Positions 14,178-32,013 of a stretch of DNA of 39,210 nucleotides are shown in pieces. The position numbers were made by a program, and so were the translations under genes. How positions within the stretch are numbered: the first letter of the stretch is position 1; every line of letters begins with the position of its first letter. The notes beneath the pieces are model-generated. The model was not told where the DNA came from, did not search any database, and worked only from the letters and a program-made list of their open reading frames with translations. The stretch is from Hydrogenophilales bacterium 12-61-10 (GTDB lineage Bacteria; Pseudomonadota; Gammaproteobacteria; Burkholderiales; Thiobacillaceae), in NCBI GenBank assembly GCA_002279795.1, contig NCCT01000008.1, positions 1 to 39,210 of the forward strand, given 5' to 3'.

Positions 14178-15422
14178 TCAGAAATACCAGGATAGCCACA
14201 GCTTCAAGTAGTCATCGTTGCGCGTCGCGTACAGCACATCATTGGCCGGGATGCTGCCCGCGTAGCCGCGCCACTCAAGATTCACTTTCCAGGTATCGCC
14301 CAAGCGTCGTTCAGCTTCGATGCTGTACGTCAGACCCCGTCCGTCGAGGTCGGGGATGACGCCGATGAGTATCTGCGAGCTCTGCACATCATTAAAACCG
14401 AGTCGCATGCCGATCAGCAGGTCGTTCTGGAGATGCGAGGGCGGGGCCGTGAATTCGGACGGCGCAATATCGGTTCGGGTCGCCACCTGTCCCCGGCTGT
14501 CATATAGATACTCGGACAACAGGCCGATGTCGGCGACGCTGTCGAAGACGCCGGACACGGTGTACTCAAAGCCCGCGCTGGAAGCGTAATAGCGTGTGCC
14601 GAGTTCCTCGCGAGCGACCGCTTCCAGCTTCCACAGCACCGGGCCATCGACATAGGTGGCGTCGACGCCGAACTGGTGGAGCAGGTCATAACGCGGCGCC
14701 AGCACCATTTCGCCGGGCGCAATCAGACGCGGCAGCAAACGCGGAGTGCGCCCGGTGCCATAAAAATAGGACAGGCCGACATCGAACCCGTTTGCGCTCA
14801 TGCTCCAGCGCACGGCCGCATCGACATGCCGGTTTTTTTTGTCGGCTTCGTAGCTGACTCGATCTTCGTCGACGACAAAGCGGGTGCGTGGCCGGCCGTC
14901 GGTGCCGGGGAAGGTGCGCTCGCGGAAAGACGGCATCAAAAAAAGATCCAGCGTGCCGCTGTCATGGATCAAGGCCAGATTCAGCATCGGCTGGCCGAGC
15001 TTGGTCTCGCCGTCCGGATTTTCAACCAGGTCCGACTGGTTGATGACATCCACCAGGTGCTGCGCCTCGGTGACGCCCCAGAACACTTTGCGGATCCCCG
15101 CGCGCAGCTCGTAACGGTCACCGATCAACAGGTATTCGAGCTCGCGGATATCGGCGTGCTGGCGATTCTCGTCGCGCGGGTCCAGGCGGGCAAAGCCGCT
15201 GAAATTGAACTGCTGTTTGCCGTTGTCCCACTCTGCGTTGTATTTGGGCTCGATGAAAGCCGAGCCGTAGTCGGAATATTGCCCGGCATATTCCGGGTCG
15301 TTCCAGAAATGCTGGTGCTCAAGTCCGATTCGGCCGGACCAGCCTGCAGCGTGGACAGCGGTCGCGTTGCCGAGCAGGGCTGCGGCGACAAGGAAGGGGA
15401 GTCGCATGGCGAGTGAGCTCAT
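14178..15422 (-). CDS. Outer-membrane beta-barrel protein (DUF1302-like?)
   Basis: A 414-residue precursor with a Sec signal peptide ending in HAA. A start at ATG 15407 (MRLPFLVAAALLG) is equally possible and gives a more typical signal. The mature part alternates amphipathic strands rich in aromatic residues at strand ends (FNFSGFARLDPRD, YELRAGIRKVFWGV, FDVGLSYFYGTG, WKVNLEWRGYAG) and closes with YLKLWLSWYF, the terminal aromatic signal of barrels recognised by BamA. It looks like a porin or channel, possibly related to DUF1302. It is the last gene of the twelve-gene minus-strand run, 35 bases after the lipoprotein-sorting-like gene, and would supply the outer-membrane element of an export route with the RND protein. 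Confidence 0.75.
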   Translation of the reverse strand: MSSLAMRLPFLVAAALLGNATAVHAAGWSGRIGLEHQHFWNDPEYAGQYSDYGSAFIEPKYNAEWDNGKQQFNFSGFARLDPRDENRQHADIRELEYLLIGDRYELRAGIRKVFWGVTEAQHLVDVINQSDLVENPDGETKLGQPMLNLALIHDSGTLDLFLMPSFRERTFPGTDGRPRTRFVVDEDRVSYEADKKNRHVDAAVRWSMSANGFDVGLSYFYGTGRTPRLLPRLIAPGEMVLAPRYDLLHQFGVDATYVDGPVLWKLEAVAREELGTRYYASSAGFEYTVSGVFDSVADIGLLSEYLYDSRGQVATRTDIAPSEFTAPPSHLQNDLLIGMRLGFNDVQSSQILIGVIPDLDGRGLTYSIEAERRLGDTWKVNLEWRGYAGSIPANDVLYATRNDDYLKLWLSWYF

Positions 15423-15457
15423 TCAATTCCCGGCAGGTTGCCGGGATGCAGGAAACC

Positions 15458-16240
15458 TCAACGCGCGCGGGCGAGCGCGTTCTGGTCAAAGTCGCGCGCC
15501 GACAGGCCGGCGCCAAATGTGTAGGCCTTCCACACCAGCTGGGTGCTTTTGCCGGTCTGGTGGTTGGTCATCGCCATGTCGGACGCGCGCCAGAACTTGC
15601 CGTAGGCCTTGTAGTCCTTGAACGTCAGGGTTTTCAGCAGCGCCTGCTTGCGGTCGTAATAGTCGATTTTCTGGATGCGGTAGGCGGACTTGTCCATCCA
15701 CACCACCTGGCGGGTGTAGCCGGAGCTGGCATCGACCGGAAACCGCTCGAACACGAATACGTCCTGGCCGCCCAGCTTTTCGTCGCGCAGCCATTTGTAG
15801 GTGTATTTCTCGACTTCCTGCGAGGTGATGTCCTCGTAGGCGAACTCGCTGCCCATGAAAGGGCCGGCCTTGTTGTCCGAGGCGATGCGCTTGACCCGCT
15901 TCAGCGCGGGCAGATAGAGCCACTGTTCGTCGTCTGCCGTCTTGTGCGAGAACGACAGCAGCGCCGTGCCTTTGACGTCGGCCGGCGTATCGAAAATCAT
16001 CAGGCTCTTGTCGCCGTCGGTCGGCATCTCCAGGGTTTTGGCGCGCATGTCGCGGCGGCTTTGCTCGCCCTGCTTGTTCTTCAGCAGCATGGCGAGATCG
16101 GCACTGCTATCGCGCCATCCGCTGTCACGGCTACTGGCTTCTTTGGCGATGGCCAGGCCTTTGTCCTCGGCCGGGCCGGCATAAGCCGGATGACACACCA
16201 GCAGGGCGGCAAGTGCGAGCAGGGAGTGGAATTTATGCAT
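15458..16240 (-). CDS. Outer membrane lipoprotein-sorting-like periplasmic protein
   Basis: Start ATG 16240 gives 260 residues with a Sec signal peptide (MHKFHSLLALAALLVCHPAYA). It overlaps the upstream RND gene by eight bases, implying translational coupling. The mature part resembles the LolA-like outer membrane lipoprotein-sorting family: DMRAKTLEMPTDGDKSLMIF, TALLSFSHK, EQWLYLPALKRVKRIAS, GPFMGSEFAYEDITS, and VWMDKSAYRIQKIDYYDR. These proteins often accompany MMPL/RND exporters and outer-membrane proteins, presumably as a periplasmic shuttle for a hydrophobic cargo. The cargo is unknown. Confidence 0.8.
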   Translation of the reverse strand: MHKFHSLLALAALLVCHPAYAGPAEDKGLAIAKEASSRDSGWRDSSADLAMLLKNKQGEQSRRDMRAKTLEMPTDGDKSLMIFDTPADVKGTALLSFSHKTADDEQWLYLPALKRVKRIASDNKAGPFMGSEFAYEDITSQEVEKYTYKWLRDEKLGGQDVFVFERFPVDASSGYTRQVVWMDKSAYRIQKIDYYDRKQALLKTLTFKDYKAYGKFWRASDMAMTNHQTGKSTQLVWKAYTFGAGLSARDFDQNALARAR

Positions 16241-18521
16241 GATGTTTTTTCTCAAGTTTAAGCAGCAGGGGGCCAAGAAACAGAAAGTCGGCGGCGAGCG
16301 CCAGGGTGAAGGTGATGGCGGTCAGCAAGCCAAGGTCGGCGTTGACGCGGAAGGTCGAAAACGACAGCACCAGAAAGCCCGCCACCAGCACGGCCGAGAG
16401 CACCCACATCGAGGTGCCTGCGGTGGCAAACACATAGCGCACCGCTTCTTCCGGCGGCTTGCCGTCGCGTCGCGCCTGGATGAATTTGCTCATGAAATGG
16501 ATGGTGTCATCGACCACGATGCCGAGCGTGAGACTGCCCACCACCGTCAGCCCCAGCCCGACCTGGCCGCTCACCAGTCCCCACACGCCGAATGCCAGAA
16601 TGATCGGCACCAGGTTGGGAATCATGCTGATGAGGCCATAGCGGATCGAGCGGAAGGCGATGATGATGGTGAGCGCGACCAGAATCAGCGAGGCCGCGTT
16701 GCCGAACATCATCGACTTCAGGTTGCGGTGACCGAGATAGGCAAACATCAGCGCCGGACTCGCGGTCGTGGCCGTCACCTGTGGGGCGTTCTGTTTGACC
16801 CAGCCCTGTGCGCGTTGCTCGAATGCGATCATTTCATTGCTGCTGAGATTGCGCACGGTCGCACTGAGCTTGGTCGACGAGCGCGCCACGTTGAGCTGGT
16901 TGTTGAGATCGAGTCCGAACGGCAGCGACATTTCGTACAGCAGCAGATACTGCGCGGCCAGCTCGCGCGAATCCGGCAGGCGGTATTCGTCGGGCCGGTC
17001 TTCGTGCAGGTTCTTGTTCAGGCGCTTCATGATGTCGGTAAAGCTCGACACGTGTACTACTTCGGGCTGCGCGCGCAACCATTGCGCAAAGGCTTCGGCA
17101 CGGCCCAGGAATAGCGGATCGGACACGCCTTCGTCGCGCCCGGCATCGAGCGAAAAATCGATCGAATAAATGCCGGTCAGATGCTGCGTCATGAAATCGG
17201 TGTCGGCACGAAACTCGGTCGAGGGGTCGAAATACTCGACGAACTGGTCGTTGATTTCATTTTTGGTGATGAGGCCGGCGAAGGCGACCAACACGGCAAT
17301 GTTGACCCAGAACAGCGGGCGGCGGTTGCGCAGCACGAACTCGGCGAAGCGATCCATCGCCATTTCGGTCTCGCCTGCCGCCGCGGGACGGATGCGGGTC
17401 GGCAGCGCCAGCATGAACGCAGGCAGGAAGGTCATCGAGAAAATCCACGCCAGCGTCACCCCGACCGCGACCAGGTTGCCGAGCTGGTTGAAGGGCGGCG
17501 AGTCGCTGAAATTCAGGCCGAGCAGACCGATCGAGGTGGCGATCGCGGTGATGGCAATCGGGCGCGCGTTGGCGCGCAGCGAGGCGGTCATGGCCGACAC
17601 CTTGTCCTGCCCCTTGCGCATGAAGTAGTAGTAGCTCGCCAGGATGTGCACCGAGTCGGCGATCGCCAGCGTCAGGATGATGATCGGCGCGGACGAGGCG
17701 GGCGGCGTCAGCTCAATGCCGATCCAGCCCATCAGCCCCATCGTCGCCATGATCGACATGACGATGATCAGAAAGGTGCCCGCTACCCCGGTCAGGTCAC
17801 GCAGCAGGAAGCCCAGCGCCAGCAAGATCACGCCGAGCACAACCGGAATCAGCGTCTTGATGTCGTTTTTCGATGCCTCGGGAAAGGCGTTGTTCATCAT
17901 CACGTTGCCGGTGAGATGGAAGTCCAGCGCCGGGTACTGCACCCGCGCCTGATCGATCATGTCGCGCACGGCCTTCACGGCATCCTGGGTGCCATGCTTG
18001 AGTTCGGCATCGGGCACATGAATGGTGACGTTGATCGCCGTGACGTCGCCCGAAGGCGAAATCAAGCGCTTGACCAGCAGGGGTTCGGTGACTGCAATCG
18101 CGCGCGCCGCCGCGAGCGCGTCCGGCGTTTTGCGCAGCGCATCCTCCACCAGATCCTGCACGATGAGATCGTCGCCCTCGGCGTGCGTGTGCTGGAAGTT
18201 GGTGAGCGAATCGACCCGGATCGAGTGCGGGATTTTCCAGGCGCGCCGGGTCAGGTCCTCTACCGCCGCGAGCGTGGGTGCGGTGAACACTTGCTTGTCT
18301 TTGGGCGCGATGACGATCAGCACGTTATCGTTTTTGGTGTAGGTGTTCTGCATCTTGTCGAACGCCGCCAGCTGCGGATTTGCGCCGCTGAAAAACACGC
18401 GGAAATCAGTCGTCATCGACAGCCGCTTGACGCCTGCAGCGCCCAGAACGGCGATCAGGAGCAGGCCGATAATCACCAGCCAGCGGTAGCGCATCAGTGC
18501 GTGGGTATAGCGTTCGATCAT
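16233..18521 (-). CDS. RND/MMPL-family exporter
   Basis: A 762-residue inner-membrane protein with the two-fold RND layout: a first TM helix (WLVIIGLLLIAVLGAAGV), a large periplasmic loop (about 35-220), five TM helices, a second periplasmic loop (about 420-600) and a second set of TM helices ending LALAADFLFLGPLLLKL. It is shorter than the ~1,040-residue AcrB/HAE drug pumps and fits the MMPL/HpnN-like group that moves lipids or other hydrophobic molecules. No membrane-fusion protein is adjacent; the LolA-like protein and barrel downstream may replace it. It starts 18 bases after the SoxB-like gene. Confidence 0.88.
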   Translation of the reverse strand: MIERYTHALMRYRWLVIIGLLLIAVLGAAGVKRLSMTTDFRVFFSGANPQLAAFDKMQNTYTKNDNVLIVIAPKDKQVFTAPTLAAVEDLTRRAWKIPHSIRVDSLTNFQHTHAEGDDLIVQDLVEDALRKTPDALAAARAIAVTEPLLVKRLISPSGDVTAINVTIHVPDAELKHGTQDAVKAVRDMIDQARVQYPALDFHLTGNVMMNNAFPEASKNDIKTLIPVVLGVILLALGFLLRDLTGVAGTFLIIVMSIMATMGLMGWIGIELTPPASSAPIIILTLAIADSVHILASYYYFMRKGQDKVSAMTASLRANARPIAITAIATSIGLLGLNFSDSPPFNQLGNLVAVGVTLAWIFSMTFLPAFMLALPTRIRPAAAGETEMAMDRFAEFVLRNRRPLFWVNIAVLVAFAGLITKNEINDQFVEYFDPSTEFRADTDFMTQHLTGIYSIDFSLDAGRDEGVSDPLFLGRAEAFAQWLRAQPEVVHVSSFTDIMKRLNKNLHEDRPDEYRLPDSRELAAQYLLLYEMSLPFGLDLNNQLNVARSSTKLSATVRNLSSNEMIAFEQRAQGWVKQNAPQVTATTASPALMFAYLGHRNLKSMMFGNAASLILVALTIIIAFRSIRYGLISMIPNLVPIILAFGVWGLVSGQVGLGLTVVGSLTLGIVVDDTIHFMSKFIQARRDGKPPEEAVRYVFATAGTSMWVLSAVLVAGFLVLSFSTFRVNADLGLLTAITFTLALAADFLFLGPLLLKLEKKHHA

Positions 18522-18539
18522 GGTGCGGGGCTCATGGAG

Positions 18540-20285
18540 TTAGCGGGGCGCCCCGGCAAGGGGCTGGATTTCGGGGTTCGGGCCACTGCGTTTTGGCAGC
18601 CGCTGCAACAACTTCACCCGGTCGGGCAGTGGGGTGAAACGGCGTCCCGGCAAGGTTGAAAAAAACTGCGTGACAACATCGGTCGCGTCAAGAATGCCGC
18701 CGTTGGGCGCGCGCAGGACGCGGATTTTTTCTGCCGCCATGCGGTTGATCCAGTTGGCATTGTCGACATACCAGTAACCGCCGATGCGGTATTCGCGCGC
18801 CGGATCGAGCGGTTCGCCGTTGACGCGGATGTTGCTCGCCATGAAGCCGTATTCCTGAAACGGGTCGAGGTCGAAGCTGACGCCCGACCAGCCAAACAGC
18901 CAGCCGCCGGTCCAGTCGTCGATGTAGTGCGTCAGCGCGCCGCGCGCGGAGTTTTCGATCTGCCAGCGGATGTCCTCGCCGCGCACCACGCCGCACGCTA
19001 CCTGCGGGCCCACCGGCATGAAGTGGTAGAGGTCTTCGAGTTTGACGGGCCCCGGCGCAACATGGGTGCCGTAGCGGAAACCGCGAATGACGCCGACGTC
19101 CGAACGGCACACGCTTTTAAAGGCATCGGCCAGAAAGTTGTGCGAGCTGCCCTCGATGACGGCCGGCTGCAGCTTGCTGTCGGCATAGTTGGAGCGGTGC
19201 AGCGCGACCGCGGTGTGGCCGACGACGCTGTCGATCGGTGTGCGCAACACCGCGCCGTTGATCGGGTTGCTGTGAGGATGGAAGCCGGGGCCTGTGACGA
19301 AGCGGTGGCGCAAGCGGGCAATTCGGGCCTGCATGTCGGCGTCGGCCTGCAGGCGGCGGGTCGTGATGCGGTGCGCGGTATGGCGGTGGCCCGTCACGCG
19401 CCCGTTGGTCACGTGCAGCGTGATTTCACCGACCAGGGTGCCATCCTGGCCTTCCTCGACCAGCAGCGTGCCGGAACGCGTGCGCACGATACGATGTGTT
19501 TCCTCGTGCATGTCGGACGACAGCACGAGGTCGATGCCGGGGACGCTTTCGGCCATTTCACGGTTGGCTGCCAATCCGCGCTCCGAGGCCAGCACCAGCA
19601 CATCCACCTGTTTGCGCAGGCGCGGCACCAGGTACGCCAGTTCTTCGCTGCCCGGCGTCAGGGTAAAGCCGTCGATCACGTGCGTACTCACGGCCTGCGG
19701 TGCGCGGTCGGCGGTGAGTCCGATCATGCCAACCTTGAGTGCGCCCGCCTGAAAAATGCGGTACGGCGGCAGGACACGATGGCCGGCCTGGCGCGCGTAG
19801 GGCGTGGCGGGAAAGTCATACTGCGTTGCGTAGTACAGGTTGGCGGCGAGCGCGCCCCAGGGGGCTTGAGGCCGCTTGCCTGCGAACAGCTCGATAAAGC
19901 GCCGGGTGCCGTAAACAAAGTCCCAGTTGCCCGCGACGAAGGCATCGATTTTCAGCGGCGTCAGCAGTTCAACCATCGCCTGGCCTTCGCTATACAGCGC
20001 TTCTGCCGAGCCCTGGATGGTGTCGCCGGTATTGACCAGTAGCGCGCCCGGGTGGCGACGGCGGATTTCCTTGATCTGGCTCGCCACATAGGCCAGCCCG
20101 CCGACCTGTTCACCGTGGGTCGGCGAACCGGCGCGCATGTCGGGACGCGGAATCAGGTGGCCGTGCAGGTCGCCCAGATGTATGAACGTGACGCTGCCCG
20201 ACGCCGCTTTCCTGGCCTCGGCGGGCGCGGCCTGGGCCAGCGGGGCGGCCAGCGTGAGCAGGAAAAGGAGTGGACGAACCAACAT
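18540..20285 (-). CDS. SoxB-like periplasmic metallophosphatase-family hydrolase
   Basis: A 581-residue precursor with a Sec signal (MLVRPLLFLLTLAAPLAQA) and the two domains of 5'-nucleotidases/SoxB: a metallophosphatase domain (about 30-310) and a C-terminal 5'-nucleotidase domain. Metal-site residues seen are D39 and H41 in GDLHGHL, D88 in NTGDTIQGSAEALY, and N120 in GNWDFVYG. The usual GNHE(F) is changed: the catalytic His position is W121, as in SoxB (HWEFTYG type). The GHTH motif also reads SSDMHEETH. The QGSA.AL..GQ.MV segment is SoxB-like. SoxB releases sulfate from a SoxY-bound thiosulfate adduct, but no SoxYZ/AX genes are nearby, so the substrate is open. It begins 12 bases after the DsrE-like stop. 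Confidence 0.75.
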   Translation of the reverse strand: MLVRPLLFLLTLAAPLAQAAPAEARKAASGSVTFIHLGDLHGHLIPRPDMRAGSPTHGEQVGGLAYVASQIKEIRRRHPGALLVNTGDTIQGSAEALYSEGQAMVELLTPLKIDAFVAGNWDFVYGTRRFIELFAGKRPQAPWGALAANLYYATQYDFPATPYARQAGHRVLPPYRIFQAGALKVGMIGLTADRAPQAVSTHVIDGFTLTPGSEELAYLVPRLRKQVDVLVLASERGLAANREMAESVPGIDLVLSSDMHEETHRIVRTRSGTLLVEEGQDGTLVGEITLHVTNGRVTGHRHTAHRITTRRLQADADMQARIARLRHRFVTGPGFHPHSNPINGAVLRTPIDSVVGHTAVALHRSNYADSKLQPAVIEGSSHNFLADAFKSVCRSDVGVIRGFRYGTHVAPGPVKLEDLYHFMPVGPQVACGVVRGEDIRWQIENSARGALTHYIDDWTGGWLFGWSGVSFDLDPFQEYGFMASNIRVNGEPLDPAREYRIGGYWYVDNANWINRMAAEKIRVLRAPNGGILDATDVVTQFFSTLPGRRFTPLPDRVKLLQRLPKRSGPNPEIQPLAGAPR

Positions 20286-20297
20286 GTCAGGGCGATG

Positions 20298-20729
20298 TCA
20301 GGGCGCGGCGTAGACCCAGCCTTCAGCCTGGCGCACCGTGATTTCGGCCAGTCCGGACGGCACGCTGGCGAGGTTGAAGGTGCTGATCAGGTCGGTGCGC
20401 CTGAGCTTGGCGGCATAGAGGCTTTTTTCGCAGATGACGAAGCGCACGCCACGGTGATTCATCTCCTTCAGCTCGTCTGCCAGCGGGGTGTAATAGCGCA
20501 AGGTTCTGACTCCCGGGCCCCAGGCGACGATCTGGATGGCGACGTTGTCGCGCCCGAGGGTGTCCTGCACGTTTCGCGCATGGTTCAGCGCCAGCTTCAA
20601 CTTGTCGGTCGAGTCTTCGGTGATCTGCAGCATCAGCTTGTAGCGTGGCGTGGCGGCATGGGAGGCCACGGCGCCCCATCCAGCCAGCAGCGCACACAGC
20701 ATCGCGAAAACTTTAATGAGTCGGGTCAT
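20298..20729 (-). CDS. Periplasmic DsrE-like protein
   Basis: Start ATG 20729 gives 143 residues and overlaps the SulP stop by 17 bases; the frame extends to 20816 without support. A Sec signal (MTRLIKVFAMLCALLAGWGA...ASHA) precedes a DsrE fold: YKLMLQITEDSTDKLKLALNHARNV, VAIQIVAWGPGV and GVRFVICEKSLYAAKL. C100 sits where this family keeps its sulfur-binding Cys (FxxCxxT/S-L). Cytoplasmic DsrE/TusD proteins carry persulfide sulfur; a secreted version would act in the periplasm with the neighbouring cytochromes and SoxB-like enzyme. The catalytic role is inferred from the Cys and the context. Confidence 0.78.
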   Translation of the reverse strand: MTRLIKVFAMLCALLAGWGAVASHAATPRYKLMLQITEDSTDKLKLALNHARNVQDTLGRDNVAIQIVAWGPGVRTLRYYTPLADELKEMNHRGVRFVICEKSLYAAKLRRTDLISTFNLASVPSGLAEITVRQAEGWVYAAP

Positions 20730-22422
20730 ACGTCGGGTCCTTGAGCAAGATGTCGCGCGGCACGGCTTCGCCGGTGGCCAGGCGGTAGTAGATGCATTGC
20801 GCGCCGATGAGGTCAATCAGGCCGGATTTGGTCAGCAGATCGTCGAAACCGTGGTCGCGCAAGCCGAGATAAAGCTGGCCGCCCGCCTGATGGCGTCGCG
20901 TCGCTTCCTTGGCCAGGGTCTGCGCGCCGGCGGTATCGAGGTGGCCCACGTGCTGCAGCGAGAGGAACAGGCTGCGCGCGCGGCCTTCGCTGTTCGCCAG
21001 CGCACGAAACTGGGCGTCGATCGATTGCACCGAACCGAAAAACAGGTTGCCGGTGACGCGCAATGCGGTGACCTCGTCGCCCAGTTCGGGCGGCAGGCAA
21101 GTGCGCGCGGTGTGCTCGTCCAGGCGCCGCAGCACCGGGCGCGAAACATTGGCGAGATAGACGCCGATCGACAGGATGACGCCTACCACCACGCCGTAAT
21201 CCAGACCCAGAATGACGGCGGCGGCGAAGCACGCGATAAAGATCATGAATTCAGCGCGCACGTTGATCAGCAAGCGGATTTCCTTGCGATCGACCAGTCC
21301 CCAGCCAACCAGCATCAACAAGCCGGCCATCACCGCAATCGGCATCAGCGCGATCAGACCGGACGCGAACACGACCAGCACCGCCAGCGCGACGGCCGAC
21401 ACCAGGCTGGACAGCGGCGTTCTGGCGCCGGCATCGAAGTTGGCTGCGCTGCGATTGAACGAGCCGCAACTGACAAAACACGACATATAGCTGCCGACGA
21501 CATTGGACAGGCCCTGGCCGACAATTTCCCGGTTCATGTCGAGCACCTGCCCCGTTTTGGCCTGCATCGAGCGCGCAATCACCGCCGACTGCATCAGGCC
21601 GAGAAAGCCGATCAGCACGGCGGACAACAGCAGGTCGTAGTAAATAAGCCGGCTGTCCGCGCTGAAGTCGACGGGTACAAAGGGCAGCGCCGACAGGGTC
21701 AGCGCGCCCAGCTTGTCGATGCGCAGGCTTGCCGGACCGAACAGGGTGTCGAGCACCCAGGCGAACAGGGTGCCGGCGACGATGGCGATGATGAGGTGCG
21801 GCAGTTTGCGGTTGATGCTGCGCGTGATCACCCCGGACAGAATCGTCACCAGGCCGCACGACGCCGCGGCCCAGTTGGCGTGGTCGAGGTTGTACCAGGC
21901 CTGCAGCACGGTTTCATGGATTTCCTCGCGCTGGTTCATCAGGATGCCGAAGAAGTTGCCGAGCTGCTGGATGATGATGACCACCCCCACCCCGGCCGCC
22001 AGCCCGACGATCACCGAATGCGAAATGTAGTTGAACACCACGCCCAGCCGCGCCAGGCCGAAGGCGAGCTGGAACACTCCCGCCATGAAGGTGAGCCCCA
22101 TCGCGTACATGATGTATTGCTCGGTGCCGCGGCTGGCGAATGCCGACAGGTCGATGAAGATCAACACCGCGAGCGCGGTGTTGGGTCCCGACATGACGTG
22201 GAAGCTCGAGCCGAACAGGGCGGCGATGATGACCGGGAAAATCGACGTGTAAATGCCGTATTCCGGCGGCAGCCCGGCGAGCGCGGCGAGCGCCACCGCT
22301 TGCGGCAGGATCAGCACCCCGGCGGTGATCCCGGCGGCCAGATCGGCACGCAGCGTCGGGCGGTCGAGCACGCGCCACCAGATCAGGAACGGGAATAATG
22401 TGGCAAGGCGTGACTCAGCCAT
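20713..22422 (-). CDS. SulP-family anion permease with STAS domain
   Basis: I chose ATG 22422 (569 residues), which overlaps the preceding cytochrome stop by eight bases. The N-terminal ~410 residues hold the SulP core of about 12-14 TM helices, with LAAGITAGVLILPQAVALAALAGLPPEYGIY and SGPNTALAVLIF as the signature segments. The C-terminal ~130 residues form a cytoplasmic STAS domain (TALRVTGNLFFGSVQSID, SLFLSLQHVGHLDTAGAQTL). SulP proteins move sulfate, bicarbonate or other anions. In this operon, sulfate or sulfite movement linked to sulfur oxidation is the natural guess. Confidence 0.9.
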   Translation of the reverse strand: MAESRLATLFPFLIWWRVLDRPTLRADLAAGITAGVLILPQAVALAALAGLPPEYGIYTSIFPVIIAALFGSSFHVMSGPNTALAVLIFIDLSAFASRGTEQYIMYAMGLTFMAGVFQLAFGLARLGVVFNYISHSVIVGLAAGVGVVIIIQQLGNFFGILMNQREEIHETVLQAWYNLDHANWAAASCGLVTILSGVITRSINRKLPHLIIAIVAGTLFAWVLDTLFGPASLRIDKLGALTLSALPFVPVDFSADSRLIYYDLLLSAVLIGFLGLMQSAVIARSMQAKTGQVLDMNREIVGQGLSNVVGSYMSCFVSCGSFNRSAANFDAGARTPLSSLVSAVALAVLVVFASGLIALMPIAVMAGLLMLVGWGLVDRKEIRLLINVRAEFMIFIACFAAAVILGLDYGVVVGVILSIGVYLANVSRPVLRRLDEHTARTCLPPELGDEVTALRVTGNLFFGSVQSIDAQFRALANSEGRARSLFLSLQHVGHLDTAGAQTLAKEATRRHQAGGQLYLGLRDHGFDDLLTKSGLIDLIGAQCIYYRLATGEAVPRDILLKDPTYDPTH

Positions 22423-23359
22423 CGGGAATCTCATCGACGAAAATACTGAACCAGCCCATGCGGGGATCCCATGGCCGGCTTTGAATCTTGAGATAGAACG
22501 CCACGTCCAGCGCTTCCTGGTCGCTGAGGCTGCCGCGCTTGCCCAATGGCATGTTGCCCTTGATGAACCCGGCTGCCGCGCCCAGCTTGTTCATGCCCGC
22601 GCCCGATGCGTAGGCATCCCAGCCCCACAGCGGCGGGAACTGGTAGCCATGGCCATCGGCGCGCGCGATGCCCGCGCCGTTCTTGCCGTGGCATACCGCG
22701 CACTGGCTTTGATAGACGACCTTGCCGCGCCCGTGCGAGGCCTCGCGCGGCGCACTGACGCCGATGAAGCCGCGCCCCGCCATGATTGCGCGCGCCGGGA
22801 CGTTGGTCGAAAGCCACTGCGCGTACGCGAGCAATGCCTGCATTTCGGGTGAGTCGAGGGTCGGCGCCGTGCCATCCATGCTGTAGCGAAAGCATTCGCC
22901 GATGCGCTCGGGAAAGGTGTTGGCGCGCAGGTTCTTGCCGCGGTACAGCGGATACAACGGATAGCCGGCCCACAGTGGCGCAGCGCCCGCCATCCGCCCT
23001 TCTGACAAATGGCAATTGCTGCAGTTGAGACCATTGCTGACATAACGGCGCGCGTAGCGCTGGGTGTCGACAAAAATATTGCGTCCGGCGCGCACCTGAT
23101 CGCCCCAGGCGTTGTCCGGCAGCTCGGCCAGGCGCGGCGGCACGAACTGGCGATCGGCCGGATCGGCCACCAGCATTTCGGTCTGTTCGGTCGGCAGGCC
23201 GATCCGGGGCGGCTCGATCAGCCGGCGGGCGAGCGGGGTATCGCTGGCTTCATCCCAGACCGGGACATCGATGGCGCGACCCACCGCATCCGGCGCGGCG
23301 CTGCCATTGAGGCCGGGGGCCAGCAACAGGAGGACGAGCAGGGAGGTTCGGTTCGACAT
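22415..23359 (-). CDS. TsdA-like diheme cytochrome c, paralogue A
   Basis: A 314-residue precursor with a Sec signal (MSNRTSLLVLLLLAPGLNGSAA). Haem sites are CSNCH (113-117) and CAVCH (220-224). The surrounding blocks GRNIFVDT, YVSNGLNCSNCHLSEGR, PLYRGKN, RIGECFRYSMDG, DSPEMQALLAYAQWLS, FPPLWG and NMPLG match thiosulfate dehydrogenase TsdA. C156 lies 39 residues after the first haem His, where TsdA has its unusual Cys haem ligand. It keeps the Arg residues of YR, RI and FRYS and the Met of GAGM. TsdA joins two thiosulfates to tetrathionate or the reverse. It is two bases after paralogue B and coupled to the SulP gene. I placed the start at the signal peptide, not at the upstream open frame. 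Confidence 0.85.
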   Translation of the reverse strand: MSNRTSLLVLLLLAPGLNGSAAPDAVGRAIDVPVWDEASDTPLARRLIEPPRIGLPTEQTEMLVADPADRQFVPPRLAELPDNAWGDQVRAGRNIFVDTQRYARRYVSNGLNCSNCHLSEGRMAGAAPLWAGYPLYPLYRGKNLRANTFPERIGECFRYSMDGTAPTLDSPEMQALLAYAQWLSTNVPARAIMAGRGFIGVSAPREASHGRGKVVYQSQCAVCHGKNGAGIARADGHGYQFPPLWGWDAYASGAGMNKLGAAAGFIKGNMPLGKRGSLSDQEALDVAFYLKIQSRPWDPRMGWFSIFVDEIPDG

Positions 23360-23361
23360 CG

Positions 23362-24246
23362 TCAAAGACCGGTGAAACCGCGGGAAAAATCCGAAATCCA
23401 GGACTTGCGGGGGTCGATGGGGCGCTTCTTCAGACGGATGTACAGCGCCACATCGTAGGCTTCCTGGTCCGCCAGACTCATGCCGCGGCCCAGCGGCATG
23501 TTGCCCTTGATATAGGCGGCGGCCGTGCGCACGGTGTAGATGCCCGCCCCCCGGTTGAAGCTCTGCGGACCCCACACCGGGGGAAACTGGTAGCGCACCT
23601 GGTCTGCCGCCTTGACGCCCTGGCCGTCGGCGCCGTGGCAAACCGCGCATTTCATGTCGTACACCACGCGGCCACGGTCGGGCGACGGCTCGATGTCGCG
23701 CTTGATCTGCACAAAACCGCGCCCCGGCAAGCGCGTGCCGGACGGAACGCCGCGCGCCAGCCATTGCGAATAGGCAGAAATGGCCTGGATCTCGCGCGAT
23801 TGCAACGCCGGCATCAGGCCATTCAGCGAGAAGCGAAAGCAGTCCTGTATCCGCATCTGGAACGTGTTGACGTCGTCGTTCTTGCCGCGATACGTTGGAT
23901 ACATCGGCCACGCGCCCCACATCGGCGCGGCATCCGGCTTGCGGCCTTCACCCAGATGACAGCTTGCGCAATTGAGGCCATTGCCCGCATAACGCGGCGC
24001 ACGCAGCTTGGTGTCGACGAAAATTTGGCGTCCTTCGCGCACCAGCTCGCCCCATGCGTTGCCCGGCAATTCGTCGAGTTCGGGTGGCACAAAGCGTGTG
24101 CCCGGGCGGCGCAAGGTCTCGGCTTCCAGCGTGCCGGGCGCGTCGGTCAGCGCCATGGCCGCACTCGGGCGCTGGTTGTACGGCCAGTCGCGCGCGATCG
24201 CGGGGGACGCAATCATCATTGCTGCCAGCAGCGCCAGAGACTTCAT
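23362..24246 (-). CDS. TsdA-like diheme cytochrome c, paralogue B
   Basis: A 294-residue precursor with a Sec signal (MKSLALLAAMMIASPAIA) and haem sites CASCH (93-97) and CAVCH (200-204). It shares with paralogue A the blocks GRQIFVDT, NGLNCASCHLGEGRKPDAAPMW, YPTYRGKN and RIQDCFRFSLNG (candidate Cys ligand C136), plus FPPVWG and NMPLG. The Arg residues of YR, RI and FRFS are kept, but GAGM of paralogue A is GAGI here, so the second haem environment may differ. The start overlaps the previous gene's stop as ATGA. This is a likely second active or electron-transfer copy in the same complex. Confidence 0.85.
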   Translation of the reverse strand: MKSLALLAAMMIASPAIARDWPYNQRPSAAMALTDAPGTLEAETLRRPGTRFVPPELDELPGNAWGELVREGRQIFVDTKLRAPRYAGNGLNCASCHLGEGRKPDAAPMWGAWPMYPTYRGKNDDVNTFQMRIQDCFRFSLNGLMPALQSREIQAISAYSQWLARGVPSGTRLPGRGFVQIKRDIEPSPDRGRVVYDMKCAVCHGADGQGVKAADQVRYQFPPVWGPQSFNRGAGIYTVRTAAAYIKGNMPLGRGMSLADQEAYDVALYIRLKKRPIDPRKSWISDFSRGFTGL

Positions 24247-25112
24247 CGCGTGTCTCGCATGCGTTGCAGCAGACCGATACGCGGATCGGCCGGACGCGGT
24301 TGCGCCAGCACGTAAGCGGCAATATCGGCGGCGTGTTGCGCGGACAGGCTGCCGCCGCGCCCGAGCGGCATGTTGGCTTGCAGATACGCCGCCAGCACCG
24401 CGGGGCGCGCGAGTTTGGAACCTGCACTGTAAGAATTCGCCCCCCACAGCGGCGGGAACTGATAGCCGGCTGTCTGCCTGGCGATGCCCTGCCCGTTGGC
24501 GCCGTGGCAGGTCAGACACTGCGCGCGGTACAGCGCGTGTCCACGCTTTGCCGATCCGCTGGCTGCGGCCACGCCCCGGGGCGCACCGGCCAGCGCACCG
24601 CCTGCGCCAAAACCTTGTCCGGGAAGCTCGGCGCGGGTGGGGGCGTTGGTCGCCAGCCACTGCGAATACGCCACCAGCGCCTGCATTTCGGGTGAATCGA
24701 GCGGCGGGCTCTGGCCGTTCAGGTTGAAGTGGAAACAGTCCTGTATCTGCGCCTCGAAGGTTTGCACGGTGCCCGGCGTGTCGCCTGGGCGCGGGTAGCG
24801 GCCCCACGCCGCCCACATCGGCGCGGCGTTCGGCTTGCGGCCTTCAGACAAATGGCAGTGGGTGCAGGACAACTGATTACCGCCGTATCGGCGTGCAAGA
24901 TTCGCGGTGTCGATGAAGATCCGGCGTCCCAGCTTGACCAGATCACCATGCTTGTCTTCCGGGATGTCCAGGATCGCGGGCGGGATGAACACCTCGCCCG
25001 GTGCGGCAACCGGCACCTCGACCAGATTGCCCGGCAATGGCACGGAAAGCGGCGTGAGCGCAGCGCTTGGGCTCGCCAGCACCACCAGCATGAGCGCATG
25101 CCATCCCTTCAT
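24243..25112 (-). CDS. TsdA-like diheme cytochrome c, divergent paralogue C
   Basis: A 289-residue precursor from ATG 25112, which overlaps the upstream cytochrome stop as ATGA. It has a Sec signal (MKGWHALMLVVLASPSAA) and haem sites CTHCH (83-87) and CLTCH (199-203). The fold-wide blocks match paralogues A and B (RRIFIDTANLARRYGGNQLSC, DSPEMQALVAYSQWLA, FPPLWG, NMPLG) and the candidate Cys ligand is kept at C126 in QIQDCFHFNLNG. However, YRGKN is replaced by a longer YPRPGDTPG loop, RI by QI, FRxS by FHFN, and GAGM by GSKL. The charged pocket that should bind thiosulfate thus looks lost, suggesting an electron-transfer or regulatory subunit or another substrate. Confidence 0.83.
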   Translation of the reverse strand: MKGWHALMLVVLASPSAALTPLSVPLPGNLVEVPVAAPGEVFIPPAILDIPEDKHGDLVKLGRRIFIDTANLARRYGGNQLSCTHCHLSEGRKPNAAPMWAAWGRYPRPGDTPGTVQTFEAQIQDCFHFNLNGQSPPLDSPEMQALVAYSQWLATNAPTRAELPGQGFGAGGALAGAPRGVAAASGSAKRGHALYRAQCLTCHGANGQGIARQTAGYQFPPLWGANSYSAGSKLARPAVLAAYLQANMPLGRGGSLSAQHAADIAAYVLAQPRPADPRIGLLQRMRDTR

Positions 25113-25885
25113 TGCGCGTCTGACCGATAGGACTGATTGGCCAGATAGGCTGCGATCGCGTGTTTGTCGCCTTCGGTCATCCATTCCGCAACCGAGCGCA
25201 TCAAGCCATTTTCATCATTGTCGCGACTGCCTGCCTGCCAGCGGTTCAGCTGCTCGATGACGTATTGCGGCGGCTGCCCCGTGAGCGCCGGAAACACCGC
25301 TCCGACCCCGACCCCGTTTTGGCCGTGGCAGGCAAAACACCCCGGCACGCCGTATTCCGGCTTGCCGCGCAGCGCCAAGTCCTCGCCGCGCTCCAGCGTT
25401 TCCGGATCGCCCGCCAGCGGGACGGCGACAAACGCCTGCGCGGCGTAATACTGTGCCAGCGCATCGACTTCATCGGCTTTCAATGCCTTGGCGATCGGGC
25501 TCATGATGGCGTCGTGACGCAGCCCCGGGGTGAGCGTGGAGTAAGGCAGATTGATCCGCGGAGTTTTGGAATAGTCGCGCGCAATTTTGTCGAAATGCGC
25601 ACCGGTGAGCGGGGCCTCGCGCCCGTAGTCACGCAATTGCCGCGCGAGATAACCCGCGTCCAGGCCCGCCAGGCGGGGAAATCCGGCAGCCGCATTGCCC
25701 TCGCCCTGTGTGCCGTGGCAACTGATGCATGCCGGCACGCCTTCGCGGCCTTTTTGAGCCAGTTCTGCGCCGAGCGCGCGTGCGGCGACGATTTCAGGCG
25801 GGACGCGGCCCTGCCAATACATGGCAAGCGCACTGCCCAGTCCAAGCGTGGCGGCCCCGGCCAGTAACCAGCGAGAAATTTTCAT
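25109..25885 (-). CDS. Diheme cytochrome c, c4-like
   Basis: A 258-residue protein from ATG 25885, with an N-terminal hydrophobic segment (WLLAGAATLGLGSALAMYW) that may be a signal anchor because no clear cleavage site follows. Two class I domains carry CISCH (53-57) and CFACH (183-187). The spacing and the segments FPRLAGLDAGYLARQLRDY, AIMSPIAKAL (M128 as a likely distal ligand), FPALTGQPPQYVIEQL and NGLMRSVAEWM resemble cytochrome c4. Such proteins pass electrons to terminal oxidases and would be the acceptor for the three TsdA-like cytochromes encoded downstream. The 124 bases upstream, after the YeeE gene, hold no gene. Confidence 0.85.
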   Translation of the reverse strand: MKISRWLLAGAATLGLGSALAMYWQGRVPPEIVAARALGAELAQKGREGVPACISCHGTQGEGNAAAGFPRLAGLDAGYLARQLRDYGREAPLTGAHFDKIARDYSKTPRINLPYSTLTPGLRHDAIMSPIAKALKADEVDALAQYYAAQAFVAVPLAGDPETLERGEDLALRGKPEYGVPGCFACHGQNGVGVGAVFPALTGQPPQYVIEQLNRWQAGSRDNDENGLMRSVAEWMTEGDKHAIAAYLANQSYRSDAQ

Positions 25886-26009
25886 GAGCGAAGGTTTTCC
25901 GTTGCAACAGGCAGGGCGTGTGCGGCGCGCAGCGGGCGTTGACCCGGCGCTGAAGACAAACCTGGGCGGCACGGGCTGGCGGGACGGCCCGATGCGATCC
26001 GTGAGGCGG

Positions 26010-26426
26010 TCAATGTGGCAGCCATTTTCTGACGCAGCCATAGAGCCAGGTGCCGTGCAATGCGCCCGCCAGCGCAGCCAGCGCACCGATCGACCCCATG
26101 CCGACAAGGGAAAAGATGGGCCCGGGGCACAAGCCGATGACGCCCCAGCCGAGGCCAAAAATGAAACCGCCCACCAGATAATTGGTGCGGCCCGCTGCTT
26201 TTTGGGGAATGACGATCGCTTCGCCGTCGAGCGTGAGCAGACGGCTGTAACGTTTGAGCAGCAATACCCCGATGGAGGCGGTGGCAATGGCGCTCGCCAG
26301 AATGCCGAACATGTGGGCCGACTGGAAATGGAACATTTCCATGATGCGATACCAGGACGCCGCCTCGGATTTGATCATCACGAACCCAAAGGCCAGCCCT
26401 GTCAGGAAGTAAGGCAGCAAGCGCAT
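26010..26426 (-). CDS. YeeE/YedE-family membrane protein, C-terminal-half component
   Basis: A 138-residue integral membrane protein with about four TM segments and the conserved motif GLGWGVIGLCPGP, whose Cys is the sulfur-handling residue known from thiosulfate transporter TsuA (YeeE). Single-chain YeeE proteins are about 350 residues; here the two halves are separate genes, with this one following its partner by six bases. The pair probably imports a sulfur compound, or exports sulfur, across the inner membrane. It starts with MRLLPYFLTGLAFGFVMIKSEAASWYRI, a typical start for this half. Confidence 0.87.
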   Translation of the reverse strand: MRLLPYFLTGLAFGFVMIKSEAASWYRIMEMFHFQSAHMFGILASAIATASIGVLLLKRYSRLLTLDGEAIVIPQKAAGRTNYLVGGFIFGLGWGVIGLCPGPIFSLVGMGSIGALAALAGALHGTWLYGCVRKWLPH

Positions 26427-26432
26427 GGCGAT

Positions 26433-27005
26433 TCAGTCGAGCAGGGTGAACAGGTGCGGCGTGACGAAATGCGCTGAAAGCAGGCCGCCGGTAAAAATCC
26501 CGACCACTGCAAGCACGGACTGGCGCTGCAGCGTCGAGAGCCCGGTGATGGCGTGACCGGACGTGCATCCGCTCGCGTAGCGGGTGCCGAATCCCACCAG
26601 CACACCGCCGCTGAACATGACGAAAACGCTTATCCAGTTGAAGTCGAACAGAATAGGCGGCAGAAATCCGCCGTCGATGGGCACGTTCCAATGGGAAAAC
26701 ATGGTGAGTGCGGCCACCGAAAGCGCGACCGGCTGCGGATTGGCAAACACGATTCCGGCCAAAAACCCGCCCAGCACAACGCCAGCGGAAAACACCAGAC
26801 CCCAGCGGTGCTCACGCCAGTTGTAGCGAAAGAAATCCACGCGGATCGACTCGGGCTGCGCGATGGCGCACAGGTGGCGCAGGTTGGAGGAAATGCCGAA
26901 CGAGCGATTGCCGATCCACAACGTCAACGGCACCAACGATCCGATCAGCGGCCCCGCGACATACCAGGGCCAGGGCGCATGCAGCCAGGCGAGCAAAATA
27001 TCCAT
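26433..27005 (-). CDS. YeeE/YedE-family membrane protein, N-terminal-half component
   Basis: Start ATG 27005 ([15 protein letters not shown]) gives 190 residues; the open frame to 27068 would add a hydrophilic stretch without a family counterpart. About five TM segments are visible, with the conserved block [20 protein letters not shown] carrying the family's Cys-containing sulfur motif. It is the first gene of the twelve-gene run, preceded by the sigma-54-type promoter at 27123-27138. Together with the next gene it forms a split YeeE/YedE transporter of the PmpA/PmpB type. Confidence 0.87.
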
Positions 27006-27093
27006 TCGTTCTTTCAGGGGGGCCTGTAAACGATCCGGCTGTGAATGTCGGTTGATGTCCTGGCTCAATGCCGACGCCGGGTATGGACTGCCC

Positions 27094-27113
27094 GGTAGAT
27101 GCGCGGATCTACC
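27094..27113 (-). promoter_or_regulatory. Leader hairpin at predicted transcript start
   Basis: A 7-bp perfect inverted repeat (ggtagat / atctacc) with a six-base loop begins at the position where a transcript from the sigma-54-type promoter should start (about 27112). It could protect the mRNA 5' end or serve as an operator. Confidence 0.35.
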
Positions 27114-27122
27114 TGAAATGGG

Positions 27123-27138
27123 TGCAAATACCGTGCCA
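27123..27138 (-). promoter_or_regulatory. Sigma-54 (RpoN) -24/-12 promoter
   Basis: The minus strand reads TGGCACGGTATTTGCA, matching the RpoN consensus TGGCACG-N4-TTGCW at every fixed position. It points toward the YeeE-cytochrome-SulP-SoxB-like run, with a predicted start near 27112 and a leader of about 107 bases to the first ATG. Transcription would need an AAA+ activator binding upstream; none is encoded in the window. Confidence 0.8.
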
Positions 27139-27202
27139 TGTTATGGGATGGCGTTCTGTTGCCCTGGAACCCTGTTCCGGGAAGGGTTGATAAAGCCTGA
27201 CC

Positions 27203-27916: not shown

Positions 27917-30694
27917 TTACAGCGGTTCGACGCTGTAGGTCACCGCCAGCGTGTGGGTCTCGCCCGGCGCCACGGTGACGACGTTGTCCATCGCGTTGGC
28001 CGACTCGACGCAGACCATCTCGCGCCATCCGGCGCCGGTTTTGCCGGCGCCCATATCACCCATTTTGTCGGCTTTTTCCGTCCACGGCGTCCACACGATG
28101 GTGGACAGCGAGCCGGTTTTGGCGATGCGGATGCGGCGTTTTAATCCTGCATCTTCGATCACGCAGTCGGCCGGCGTGTTCACATAGACGCGGTCGACTT
28201 CGCCATCAAAGCCGATGGTGCCGCTTTGCTTTTTGGTGGCGAAGTGGTCGACCTTGTCGTGGAAGGTCGCGCCTTCGAGGCCGCTGACTTTCACCGCGCC
28301 GATGTCGCTGATGTGCAGGTAGGTGTGCAGCGCTTCGCCGATCTGGATGGGGGCATTGCCAGTGTTGGTCGTCGCCAGTTGCATTTCCAGCTTGTCGCCC
28401 ACCACCACGGTCAGCGTCAGCCGGGTGGGATGCGGCCATTGCGCGCGGGTTTGTTCGTTGTCCACCAGTTGCAGCGTGATTTCGGTTTTGGCGTCGTTGC
28501 GCTTGCGCGTTGCGGTCACCTCCCACGGCACGGTGCGGGCGAAGCCGTGCGCGGGGAACGTGGCGTCGTCGGCGTGCGCGCCGAACCACGGCCAGCACAC
28601 CGGCGCGCCGCCGCGTATGGACTTGCCCGGCGCGAACTTGGCGGCGTCGGACACCCACACCACAGGCTCGTGTTGCGATTTCGGGCGGAAGTTCACCACG
28701 TGCGCGCCCTGCAGACAGATCGTCGCGCGGCCGCCGTGGTTGTCGATGTCGGCATAGGTCAAGCCGCCGGCACCGGTGCGGAAAGCCAGCTGGCCGGCAA
28801 TGGCGAAACGCGCCAGCGGGTCGGCGTGGCTTTGCGCCTCAGTCGGGTGCTCCACCAGCGACACGTCGCGCACCGCGCCAAAGGCGGCCGAGGTCACCAT
28901 CGAGGCGTAGGCGCGCAGCGCGGGCGATACCGCACGAACCCGGTTGACCGGCTTCCAGGCCAGCGCGCCTTTGGCGTCCATCGCAGCGCGGCGGCGTTCC
29001 AGTTCGGCTTCAGATACGCGGACGTTGATCGTGCGCGCCGGGATGTCGATATCGATCATGTCGCCTTCTTCGACCAGGCCGATGGTGCCGCCTTCGGCCG
29101 CTTCCGGGCTGGCGTGGCCGATGGAAAGGCCCGAGGTGCCGCCGGAGAAGCGGCCGTCGGTGACCAGCGCGCAGACCTTGCCGAGGCCTTTCGATTTCAG
29201 GTAGCTGGTGGGGTAGAGCATTTCCTGCATGCCGGGGCCGCCGCGCGGGCCTTCGTAGCGGATCACCACCACATCGCCAGCGACGATCCTGTCGGCGAGG
29301 ATGGCTTCCACCGTGGCGTCCTGAGATTCGAACACGCGGGCGGGACCGGAAAATTTGAGGATGTGTTCATCGACGCCGGCTGTTTTGACGATGCAGCCGT
29401 CGAGCGCCAGATTGCCGTACAGCACCGCCAGACCGCCGTCTTTCGAATAGGCGTGTTCGAGGTCGTGGATACAGCCGTTGACGCGGTCGTCGTCGAGCTT
29501 GGCAAAGCGCTTGTTCTGCGAAAACGCCGTCTGCGTCGGCACGCCGCCGGGGGCAGCGCGGTAGTATTCCCTGACGTCCGGATTGGTCGTGCGGCGGATG
29601 TCGTAGGTGTCGATCTGCTCGCCCAGCGATTTCATCAGCACCGTCGGCAGGTCGCGATGCACCAGTCCGCCGCGCTCGAGTTCGCCGAGAATGCGCATCA
29701 CGCCGCCAGCGCGATGCACGTCTTCCATGTGATAGGTCTGGATCGATGGCGCGACTTTCGACAGATGCGGCACGCGACGGCTCATGCGGTCGATGTCCTT
29801 CATGGTGAAGTCGACGCCCGCCTCGTGTGCGGCGGCCAGCAGATGCAGCACGGTGTTGGTCGAACCGCCCATCGCGATGTCGAGCGCGATCGCGTTCTCG
29901 AAGGCGTCGAAACTGGCAATCGCGCGCGGCAGCACGGAGTGGTCATTCTCTTCGTAATAGCGGCGCGCGTTTCTGACGATCAGGCGGCCGGCGGCGAGAA
30001 ACAGGTTTCTGCGGTCGGCGTGGGTGGCGAGCATCGAGCCGTTGCCGGGCAAACTCAATCCCAATGCCTCGGTCAGGCAGTTCATCGAGTTGGCGGTGAA
30101 CATGCCCGAGCACGAACCGCAGGTGGGGCAGGCCGAGCGCTCCAGCTGGTCGACCTTCTCGTCGCTGAATTTGTCATCCGCCGCCGACACCATGGCGTCG
30201 ACCAGGTCGAGCTTGATGACCTTGGATTCCCACACCACCTTGCCCGCCTCCATCGGTCCGCCGGAGACGAACACGGTCGGAATGTTGAGGCGCAGCGCGG
30301 CGTTCAGCATCCCCGGCGTGATCTTGTCGCAGTTGGAGATGCACACCAGCGCATCGGCGCAATGCGCGTTGACCATGTATTCGACGCTGTCGGCGATCAG
30401 GTCGCGCGACGGCAGCGAATAGAGCATGCCGCCGTGACCCATTGCGATGCCGTCGTCGACCGCGATGGTGTTGAACTCTTTGGCCACGCCGCCAGCCGCC
30501 TCGATCTCGCGCGCCACCAGTTGCCCCATGTCCTTCAGGTGCACGTGCCCGGGCACGAACTGGGTGAACGAGTTGGCAATCGCGATGATCGGCTTGTTGA
30601 AATCGCCGTCCTTCATGCCGGTGGCGCGCCACAGCGCACGGGCTCCAGCCATGTTGCGGCCGCGGGTAGTCGTCCAGGAACGGTAGTCAGGCAT
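27917..30694 (-). CDS. ilvD: Dihydroxy-acid dehydratase fused to hexose-6-phosphate mutarotase-like domain
   Basis: One uninterrupted 925-residue frame. Residues 1 to about 615 are IlvD, which dehydrates 2,3-dihydroxy acids in valine/isoleucine synthesis: Fe-S Cys in NCDKITPGM (C122) and CGSCSGMF (C195), and the usual end [20 protein letters not shown]. Where other IlvD proteins stop, the frame continues through a short linker ([18 protein letters not shown]) into residues about 632-925, a full YeaD-type aldose-1-epimerase: [45 protein letters not shown] and MVCVESANA. No separate ATG exists near the junction, though an internal GTG could be used. It is either a true fusion or a lost stop. 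ParA follows. Confidence 0.85.

Positions 30695-31937: not shown

Positions 31938-32013
<76 letters not shown>

Follow-up and report, generated by a model that had tools for sequence, protein, structure and literature searches.

A route from thiosulfate to zero-valent sulfur that combines TsdA with SoxB has already been published (PMC7608252). In Erythrobacter flavus, a thiosulfate-induced cluster carries tsdB, tsdA and three SoxB-domain genes of the 5′-nucleotidase family, and deletion of tsdA, or of one of the SoxB genes, nearly abolishes sulfur globule formation. SoxB has been proposed to split tetrathionate into sulfate and zero-valent sulfur, a route without SoxYZ (PMC7608252). A twelve-gene operon of Hydrogenophilales bacterium 12-61-10 is described here and compared with this and other known systems. 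It lies on a single contig of 39,210 nucleotides, termed the window, which belongs to a 3.02 Mb draft assembly (160 contigs, completeness 99.6%, contamination 5%). The operon is real and conserved around a five-gene core, TsdB, TsdA, SulP, DsrE and a SoxB-like hydrolase, and is built in layers. Searches of the open-access literature, judged by titles, abstract openings and selected passages, gave no description of the five-gene core or of the gene set.

The likeness to E. flavus 21-3, compared by description and not by sequences, consists of tsdB-tsdA and SoxB-domain proteins in one cluster, with no SoxYZ in the proposed route. The E. flavus cluster differs in encoding three SoxB-domain proteins and the sulfur dioxygenase SdoA; the words 'RND' and 'permease' are absent from the main text of that report, in which no search was made for DsrE (PMC7608252). 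With TsdBA systems the operon shares a tsdB directly before tsdA, as reported for nine Halomonas genomes (PMC9237845), and two TsdA copies, TsdA2 and TsdA3, that keep the Cys-ligated heme and the substrate residues. It differs from them in the number of tsdA copies, which reaches three, in the loss of the thiosulfate-binding side chains from the first copy, and in the linkage to SulP, DsrE and the SoxB-like gene. The Sox system (SoxAX, SoxB, SoxYZ) has in common with it SoxA-family cytochromes and a hydrolase of SoxB fold. However, by family calls SoxY, SoxZ and SoxX are not among the twelve operon genes, the hydrolase scores 178 against a cut-off of 550 bits and has Glu/Asp for two metal-site His, and the genome has its true Sox genes at other sites. 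PmpA and PmpB have been defined as two YeeE halves (PMC11582611); as in the YeeE/YedE family members PmpAB, SoxT and TsuA, both profile halves are covered, here by two half-length proteins, but the pair is optional in this operon and PmpAB function is putative. Finally, AmeABCD of Castellaniella defragrans joins an HAE3 RND transporter to LolA/DUF1329-type and outer-membrane partners and acts on apolar monoterpenes (PMC6394551). The present operon likewise has an HAE3-type RND protein (under the HAE3 model cut-off), a LolA/DUF1329-type periplasmic protein and an outer-membrane barrel; unlike AmeABCD, it has no AmeC-like gene, and its barrel is not DUF1302 by Pfam.

The genes form a minus-strand run from about 27005 down to 14178, in the order listed:

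26433..27068, minus strand: PmpA, C-terminal half of a YeeE/YedE-type transporter (PF04143 154-309; likely start ATG 27005; PmpA assignment from PMC11582611)
26010..26426, minus strand: PmpB, N-terminal half of a YeeE/YedE-type transporter, DUF6691 (PF04143 10-111, PF20398; PmpB assignment from PMC11582611)
25109..25885, minus strand: TsdB-like c4-type diheme cytochrome, the presumed electron acceptor of TsdA (two CxxCH; best solved match the TsdB part of TsdBA 5LO9, E 2e-24)
24243..25112, minus strand: TsdA1, TsdA paralogue with the heme-ligand Cys kept (T/Q/N at A. vinosum TsdA Arg109/Arg119/Ser127; residue roles from PMC4423706)
23362..24246, minus strand: TsdA2, predicted canonical TsdA-type thiosulfate dehydrogenase / tetrathionate reductase (E 1.6e-61 to TsdBA 5LO9, 6e-53 to A. 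vinosum TsdA; Cys, R119 and S127 equivalents kept, K at 109)
22415..23359, minus strand: TsdA3, predicted canonical TsdA-type cytochrome (E 5e-53 to A. vinosum TsdA; Cys, R119 and S127 equivalents kept, K at 109)
20713..22434, minus strand: SulP anion transporter with STAS domain (PF00916 2.9e-81, PF01740)
20298..20729, minus strand: DsrE-family protein with hydrophobic, signal-like N-terminus and Cys at the family position (PF02635; MTH1491 match; alignment)
18540..20285, minus strand: putative SoxB-like periplasmic metallohydrolase with altered metal site, E235 and D258 (TIGR04486 178 bits, cut-off 550; nearest fold SoxB 2WDC)
16233..18521, minus strand: RND transporter, MMPL/HAE3 type (PF03176 8e-32; TIGR00921 HAE3 3e-44, yet under the model's cut-off)
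15458..16240, minus strand: LolA-like periplasmic protein, DUF1329-related (PF17131 7.6e-66)
14178..15422, minus strand: predicted outer-membrane beta-barrel (AlphaFold2 model with 20 strands and a predicted local distance difference test score, pLDDT, of 82.8; C-terminal Phe; without Pfam family)

Conservation was assessed with the SoxB-like protein as bait. Relatives at E≤1e-40 are found in 18 genomes, the source genome counted, out of 369 class genomes drawn evenly. From these matches 20 stretches were read, one of them from the source genome. The operon is present in L033 (genome G205), L034 (G080, a complete genome), L036 (G197, the core only) and L035 (G088, where it is truncated at the end of the contig). 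The same bait, run against named genomes, yielded 50 loci. Order and strand of the core are identical in 13 of these (L053-L058, L061-L066 and L085), with an extra frame between DsrE and the SoxB-like gene in L062. DsrE precedes the SoxB-like gene in four further named loci, L059, L060, L077 and L084, but contig ends intervene; L077 and L084 belong to one genome, and SulP was not found in L059 and L084 within 2.0 and 2.9 kb of upstream sequence. The core was not shown in the remaining 33 of the 50 loci, five of which (L067, L072, L075, L091 and L092) have TsdA nearby in a different arrangement. The two sets overlap (L058 is G205, L060 is G088 and L066 is G197), and close relatives occur among the loci, namely L061 with L064-L066, and L054 with L055. 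As the gene order is kept in other families of the class, it is more than chance, and because of this conserved synteny a linked sulfur function for the core is well supported. The preliminary description of this DNA had named conserved synteny as a check to be made, and the core order at 13 of 50 named loci and in G080 bears it out.

The phylogeny of the hydrolase agrees with the gene order. In a SoxB-like tree of 35 rows, the 14 operon proteins form one side of a branch with support 100/100, and the window and L053 are sister to the other operon members; one row, L108_1618, is a 106-residue fragment and is not interpreted. The record of L085 is titled Arcobacter yet falls inside the operon clade, so the title may be a binning error. 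At L053, the closest relative, flanking frames compared by eye match the lengths of the dehydratase-epimerase and ParA-like proteins that flank the operon in the window, and one is near the length of the DUF255 protein; the Pmp pair was not found there. A phylum-wide draw of 398 genomes (E≤1e-60) gave the SoxB-like family only in the source genome. In the named scan, loci titled Lysobacter, Tessaracoccus and Nitrospiraceae carry the wider SoxB-like family, the core order being present in none. At L075 and L091 (Lysobacter), TsdB/TsdA adjoin the SoxB-like gene, and SulP and the PmpAB pair lie nearby in a differing order. L076 and L100 (titled Actinomycetales and Tessaracoccus) have SoxB-like proteins with the Glu/Asp metal-site pattern described below, which cluster with those of Lysobacter.

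The operon is found in genomes with other sulfur oxidation systems. SoxZ is present in all five operon holders of the class sample, versus 195 of the 369 class genomes over the cut-off, and dsrA is over the cut-off in all five, versus 112 of the 369. As sox and dsrA genes are present in operon genomes, and in the source genome outside the operon, the module adds to Sox and reverse Dsr and does not replace them. The absence of the Sox carrier genes, stated in the preliminary description, is true of the operon and not of the genome, which has a SoxZ on another contig and two SoxB proteins over the family cut-off. Contig C102 of the source genome (29807-31418) has a SoxB close to SoxZ whose match falls into two parts, an in-frame TGA being present in one of them. 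Contig C107 carries another SoxB, which is intact; at 5% contamination, one of the two may be foreign.

From the observed gene content, synteny, clade, residue patterns and presence of sox and dsrA, we infer the reactions, directions and substrates that follow. The core may be a periplasmic thiosulfate/polythionate module, independent of SoxYZ, in which TsdBA and the SoxB-like hydrolase act alongside Sox and reverse Dsr. TsdA2 and TsdA3 would couple two thiosulfates to tetrathionate and pass the electrons to the c4 cytochrome TsdB. Acting without SoxYZ on tetrathionate or some other soluble S-sulfonate, the hydrolase would then cut off the sulfonate group as sulfate, and zero-valent sulfur would be left. 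Passage of an oxyanion, either sulfate or thiosulfate, through the inner membrane would be the task of SulP, and DsrE might be a helper, either sulfur-handling or structural. PmpAB, for sulfur import, and the RND/LolA-like/barrel set, for export of a hydrophobic product, would be accessories recruited in some lineages, including that of the source genome. This proposal is based on core synteny (13 of 50 loci, and G080), the SoxB-like clade, the TsdB and TsdA matches and residues, the SoxB fold, Trp121, the E. flavus deletions, and co-occurrence with sox and dsrA; it is put forward tentatively, as slightly more open to doubt than to acceptance. The operon most plausibly works along the TsdA and SoxB line of E. 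flavus.

Several points weigh against the proposal. The SoxB-like protein departs from SoxB at two positions of the metal site, and its chemistry may differ. In the E. flavus cluster, the two other SoxB-domain genes were deleted without effect on sulfur globules (PMC7608252). A polythionate route leaves SulP and DsrE without a clear role, and the direction of TsdA, thiosulfate oxidation or tetrathionate reduction, is not readable from sequence. Just 10 of 15 named operon genomes, which are drafts, have dsrA over the cut-off, and three of these 15 are also among the five class-sample holders. As two of those five holders come from one genus, the co-occurrence with Sox and dsrA is an association and not a test.

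If the proposal is correct, bacteria already equipped with Sox and reverse Dsr, among them drafts titled Thiohalobacter, Thiosymbion and Thiotrichales, would have in the core a specific and conserved set of genes for a second route of thiosulfate oxidation, and a hydrolase family with altered metal site could explain tetrathionate splitting in the operon holders. We know of no established mechanism by which zero-valent sulfur leaves or enters the periplasm, and the attachment of the RND gene would offer a testable gene for this passage. The preliminary description envisaged a single periplasmic pathway of import, oxidation, relay and export. The linked sulfur function of the core is well supported. 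The pathway as a whole is not well supported, as PmpAB and the RND set are optional, LolA-like proteins are common, the DsrE Cys is lost at 2 of 19 loci, and work on Hyphomicrobium reports no link of PmpAB to sulfur oxidation (PMC11582611).

The outer layers vary from locus to locus. Accessory genes were sought by tblastn at E≤1e-5. PmpAB is present in the window, G080, L056, L058 and L085, that is in 3 of the 13 full-core named loci, and was not found in the other 10 (L053-L055, L057 and L061-L066). The profile ranges 154-309 and 10-111 indicate two short YeeE halves, with a Cys in GLCPGP and in SGCTSG, the candidate equivalents of Cys91 and Cys293 of TsuA. The RND, LolA-like and barrel genes follow the SoxB-like gene in the window, G080, L053, L058 and L060, and in L056 as far as the contig end. 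In L054 and L055, RND and LolA-like genes are divergent and upstream, with the barrel after the SoxB-like gene. L085 ends right after the SoxB-like gene and has broken pieces of another MMPL gene upstream.

The RND/LolA-like/barrel set is a common module. Its rank as an integral part of the core was rejected, given that the LolA-like protein is in 126 of the 369 class genomes (E≤1e-30) and that the set is missing nearby at 8 of the 14 named loci where this is visible (L057, L059 and L061-L066). The same two counts favour the view that the set is an unrelated envelope-maintenance module, merely downstream, with the core alone forming the sulfur system. So do the 12 of 17 other loci read at which RND and barrel both flank the LolA-like gene within about 1.5 kb, and a second RND-LolA copy in G080 and G205 at an unlinked site common to both. 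A LolA-like match is found in 16 of 17 operon-holding genomes searched, with the best copy per genome 51-100% identical; the L057 genome is without one. A tree of 25 LolA-like proteins points the other way: a long branch with full support separates the L054/L055 copies widely from those of the window and Thiohalobacter, the best tree has three label changes, and a single change suffices in none of 200 bootstrap trees. However, 9 of the 22 inner branches are weak, and the strongly supported branches alone allow a single attachment, so the set was apparently, not certainly, attached more than once. The divergent RND pair of L054/L055, with its barrel after the SoxB-like gene, and the MMPL pieces of L085 also speak against an unrelated module. 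The two sides come close to balancing, with a slight lean away from that view. Sulfur export by the set is only a hypothesis; by analogy with AmeABCD it is conceivable, but no more, that a hydrophobic compound, S8 for example, is exported.

The c4-like cytochrome of the preliminary description is indeed a c4-type diheme protein and can be refined to TsdB: it is encoded directly upstream of tsdA1, and it best matches the TsdB portion of 5LO9, a TsdBA fusion. Cys123 serves as heme ligand in A. vinosum TsdA, where thiosulfate is bound by Arg109, Arg119 and Ser127; the R119A change strongly raises the Km (PMC4423706). All three TsdA proteins of the operon keep both CxxCH motifs and the axial-ligand Cys. 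In alignments, the equivalents of 109/119/127 are K/R/S in TsdA2 and TsdA3, versus T/Q/N in TsdA1. Across 31 aligned TsdA rows, the Cys is kept in every one, and the Arg119 and Ser127 equivalents are both missing in three: TsdA1 (Q, N), its closest match L053_5134 (Q, E) and L063_5717 (Q, A). Each of these is the first TsdA after TsdB in a multi-copy operon; in L054 and L055 both TsdA copies are canonical. As its thiosulfate-binding residues are lost, TsdA1 is probably not an ordinary thiosulfate dehydrogenase. The first heme motif of the L085 TsdA is CTSFH. Two more TsdA-like genes occur in the source genome, on contigs C107 (9683-10486) and C136 (9174-9941); that on C107 contains a single in-frame TGA and has a true SoxB nearby.

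TsdBA could also work as a tetrathionate reductase in respiration or detoxification, with the SoxB-like protein and SulP dealing with by-products. TsdA is bifunctional and reduces tetrathionate in some cases (PMC7608252), and the sequence gives no direction, but the operon is found in genomes with Sox and reverse Dsr, and a sulfonate-group hydrolase suits oxidation better; this alternative is unlikely.

The hydrolase, by its sequence, is not SoxB. It scores 177.8 bits with TIGR04486, the NCBIfam SoxB model with a cut-off of 550, versus 764 and 697 bits for two true SoxB proteins of the same genome. Its model (pLDDT 88) has Thermus SoxB 2WDC as top fold match, with template-modelling (TM) scores of 0.75/0.80. 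The motif GNWD stands where 5′-nucleotidases have GNHE and SoxB has HWE, and Trp121 agrees with SoxB. Downstream, SERGL and SDMHE replace the LSHNGM and GHTHD of five true SoxBs. The metal-site positions E235 and D258 are Glu/Asp in 17 of 17 distinct operon members compared, versus His/His in 5 of 5 true SoxBs compared; the two His positions are, we presume, metal ligands in the UshA/SoxB family. The metal site thus distinguishes this hydrolase family from SoxB, as judged from residues. The Glu/Asp pair is also present in many non-operon relatives, and the Arg that follows the Glu is carried by no motif-table row outside the operon group. A second SoxB-like paralogue with the Glu/Asp pattern, 40% identical, lies outside the operon in the source genome (L047, contig C93, 2792-4447). 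Downstream of the G080 operon (L034, 15106-19973) are a LuxR-type regulator, a further SoxB-like gene with the Glu but with the second-position His kept, and a sigma-54 activator.

The domain composition of the protein, Metallophos with 5_nucleotid_C, would also suit a nucleotidase or other phosphoesterase with no role on sulfur oxyanions. Of 45 plasmid records with a relative, the 30 listed (24-29% identity) are mostly annotated as 5′-nucleotidase or metallophosphatase, and some as SoxB. Yet SoxB is the nearest fold, the His of GNHE is replaced by Trp as in SoxB, and TsdBA is linked at 13 of 13 full-core loci, which makes a nucleotidase a doubtful choice.

In the window DsrE has the Cys at the family position, and 17 of 19 loci carry one or more copies that have it. 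It is Ser in the sole copy at L062 and L085, and one of two L063 copies is without it. As 2 of 19 loci are entirely without the Cys, a universal, essential persulfide relay through it is unlikely. For this reason DsrE as a replacement of SoxYZ was demoted to a rival: TsdA would conjugate thiosulfate to the Cys of a secreted DsrE, the SoxB-like protein would remove sulfate, and the DsrE persulfide would pass by way of PmpAB to reverse Dsr. Such a swapped carrier is improbable, for although TsdA is of the SoxA family (Pfam; PMC4423706), DsrE immediately precedes the SoxB-like gene in the core and has a signal-like N-terminus and the Cys, and the twelve genes are without SoxYZ, the Cys losses are joined by a TsdA active site considerably smaller than that of SoxAX, which must take a peptide co-substrate (PMC4423706), by the missing PmpAB at 10 of 13 full-core named loci and by the genome's own SoxZ. 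Very improbable, finally, is an extended form of the SoxYZ-independent proposal, in which the Glu/Asp SoxB-like family would be a dedicated periplasmic polythionate hydrolase that with TsdBA makes a complete SoxYZ-free machine from thiosulfate to sulfate plus sulfur, and the HAE3 RND/LolA/barrel set would export the zero-valent sulfur.

The twelve compact minus-strand genes of the preliminary description are all present, and Pfam and NCBIfam calls agree with its family assignments: Sulf_transp halves, a diheme cytochrome c, three SoxA/TsdA diheme cytochromes, Sulfate_transp with STAS, DsrE, Metallophos with 5_nucleotid_C, MMPL and LolA_like. The barrel, without a Pfam family, has its 20-strand model and C-terminal Phe; the model gives weak porin/AlgE-like Foldseek matches (TM 0.38-0.55), and a PHROGs search gave no match. 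Placement of the operon end at 27140 was in error, as the open frame of the first gene, PmpA, stops short of it; the longest start is TTG 27068, and ATG 27005 is likelier. The ATGA overlaps (25112/25109 and 24246/24243) and a largest gap of 124 bases, between positions 26010 and 25885 of the PmpB and TsdB genes, were given correctly. SulP and DsrE overlap by 17 bases and RND and LolA-like by 8; the stated maximum of 17 depends on the start of SulP, since from its first ATG (22434) the overlap with TsdA3 is 20 bases. A promoter and terminator scan gave 2 promoter-like sites (shuffles 2.7) and 18 terminator-like sites (shuffles 12.2, standard deviation 4.0) and was not used.

Upstream of the operon is a ParA-like ATPase gene on the same strand. 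Downstream are a 197-amino-acid frame without Pfam match and then the DUF255 protein. A single 925-amino-acid frame at 27917-30694 of the window fuses a dihydroxy-acid/phosphogluconate dehydratase to an aldose 1-epimerase domain. Two tRNA-Ala (CGC) genes, with 2 kb between them, are at 31938-32013 and 33928-34003.

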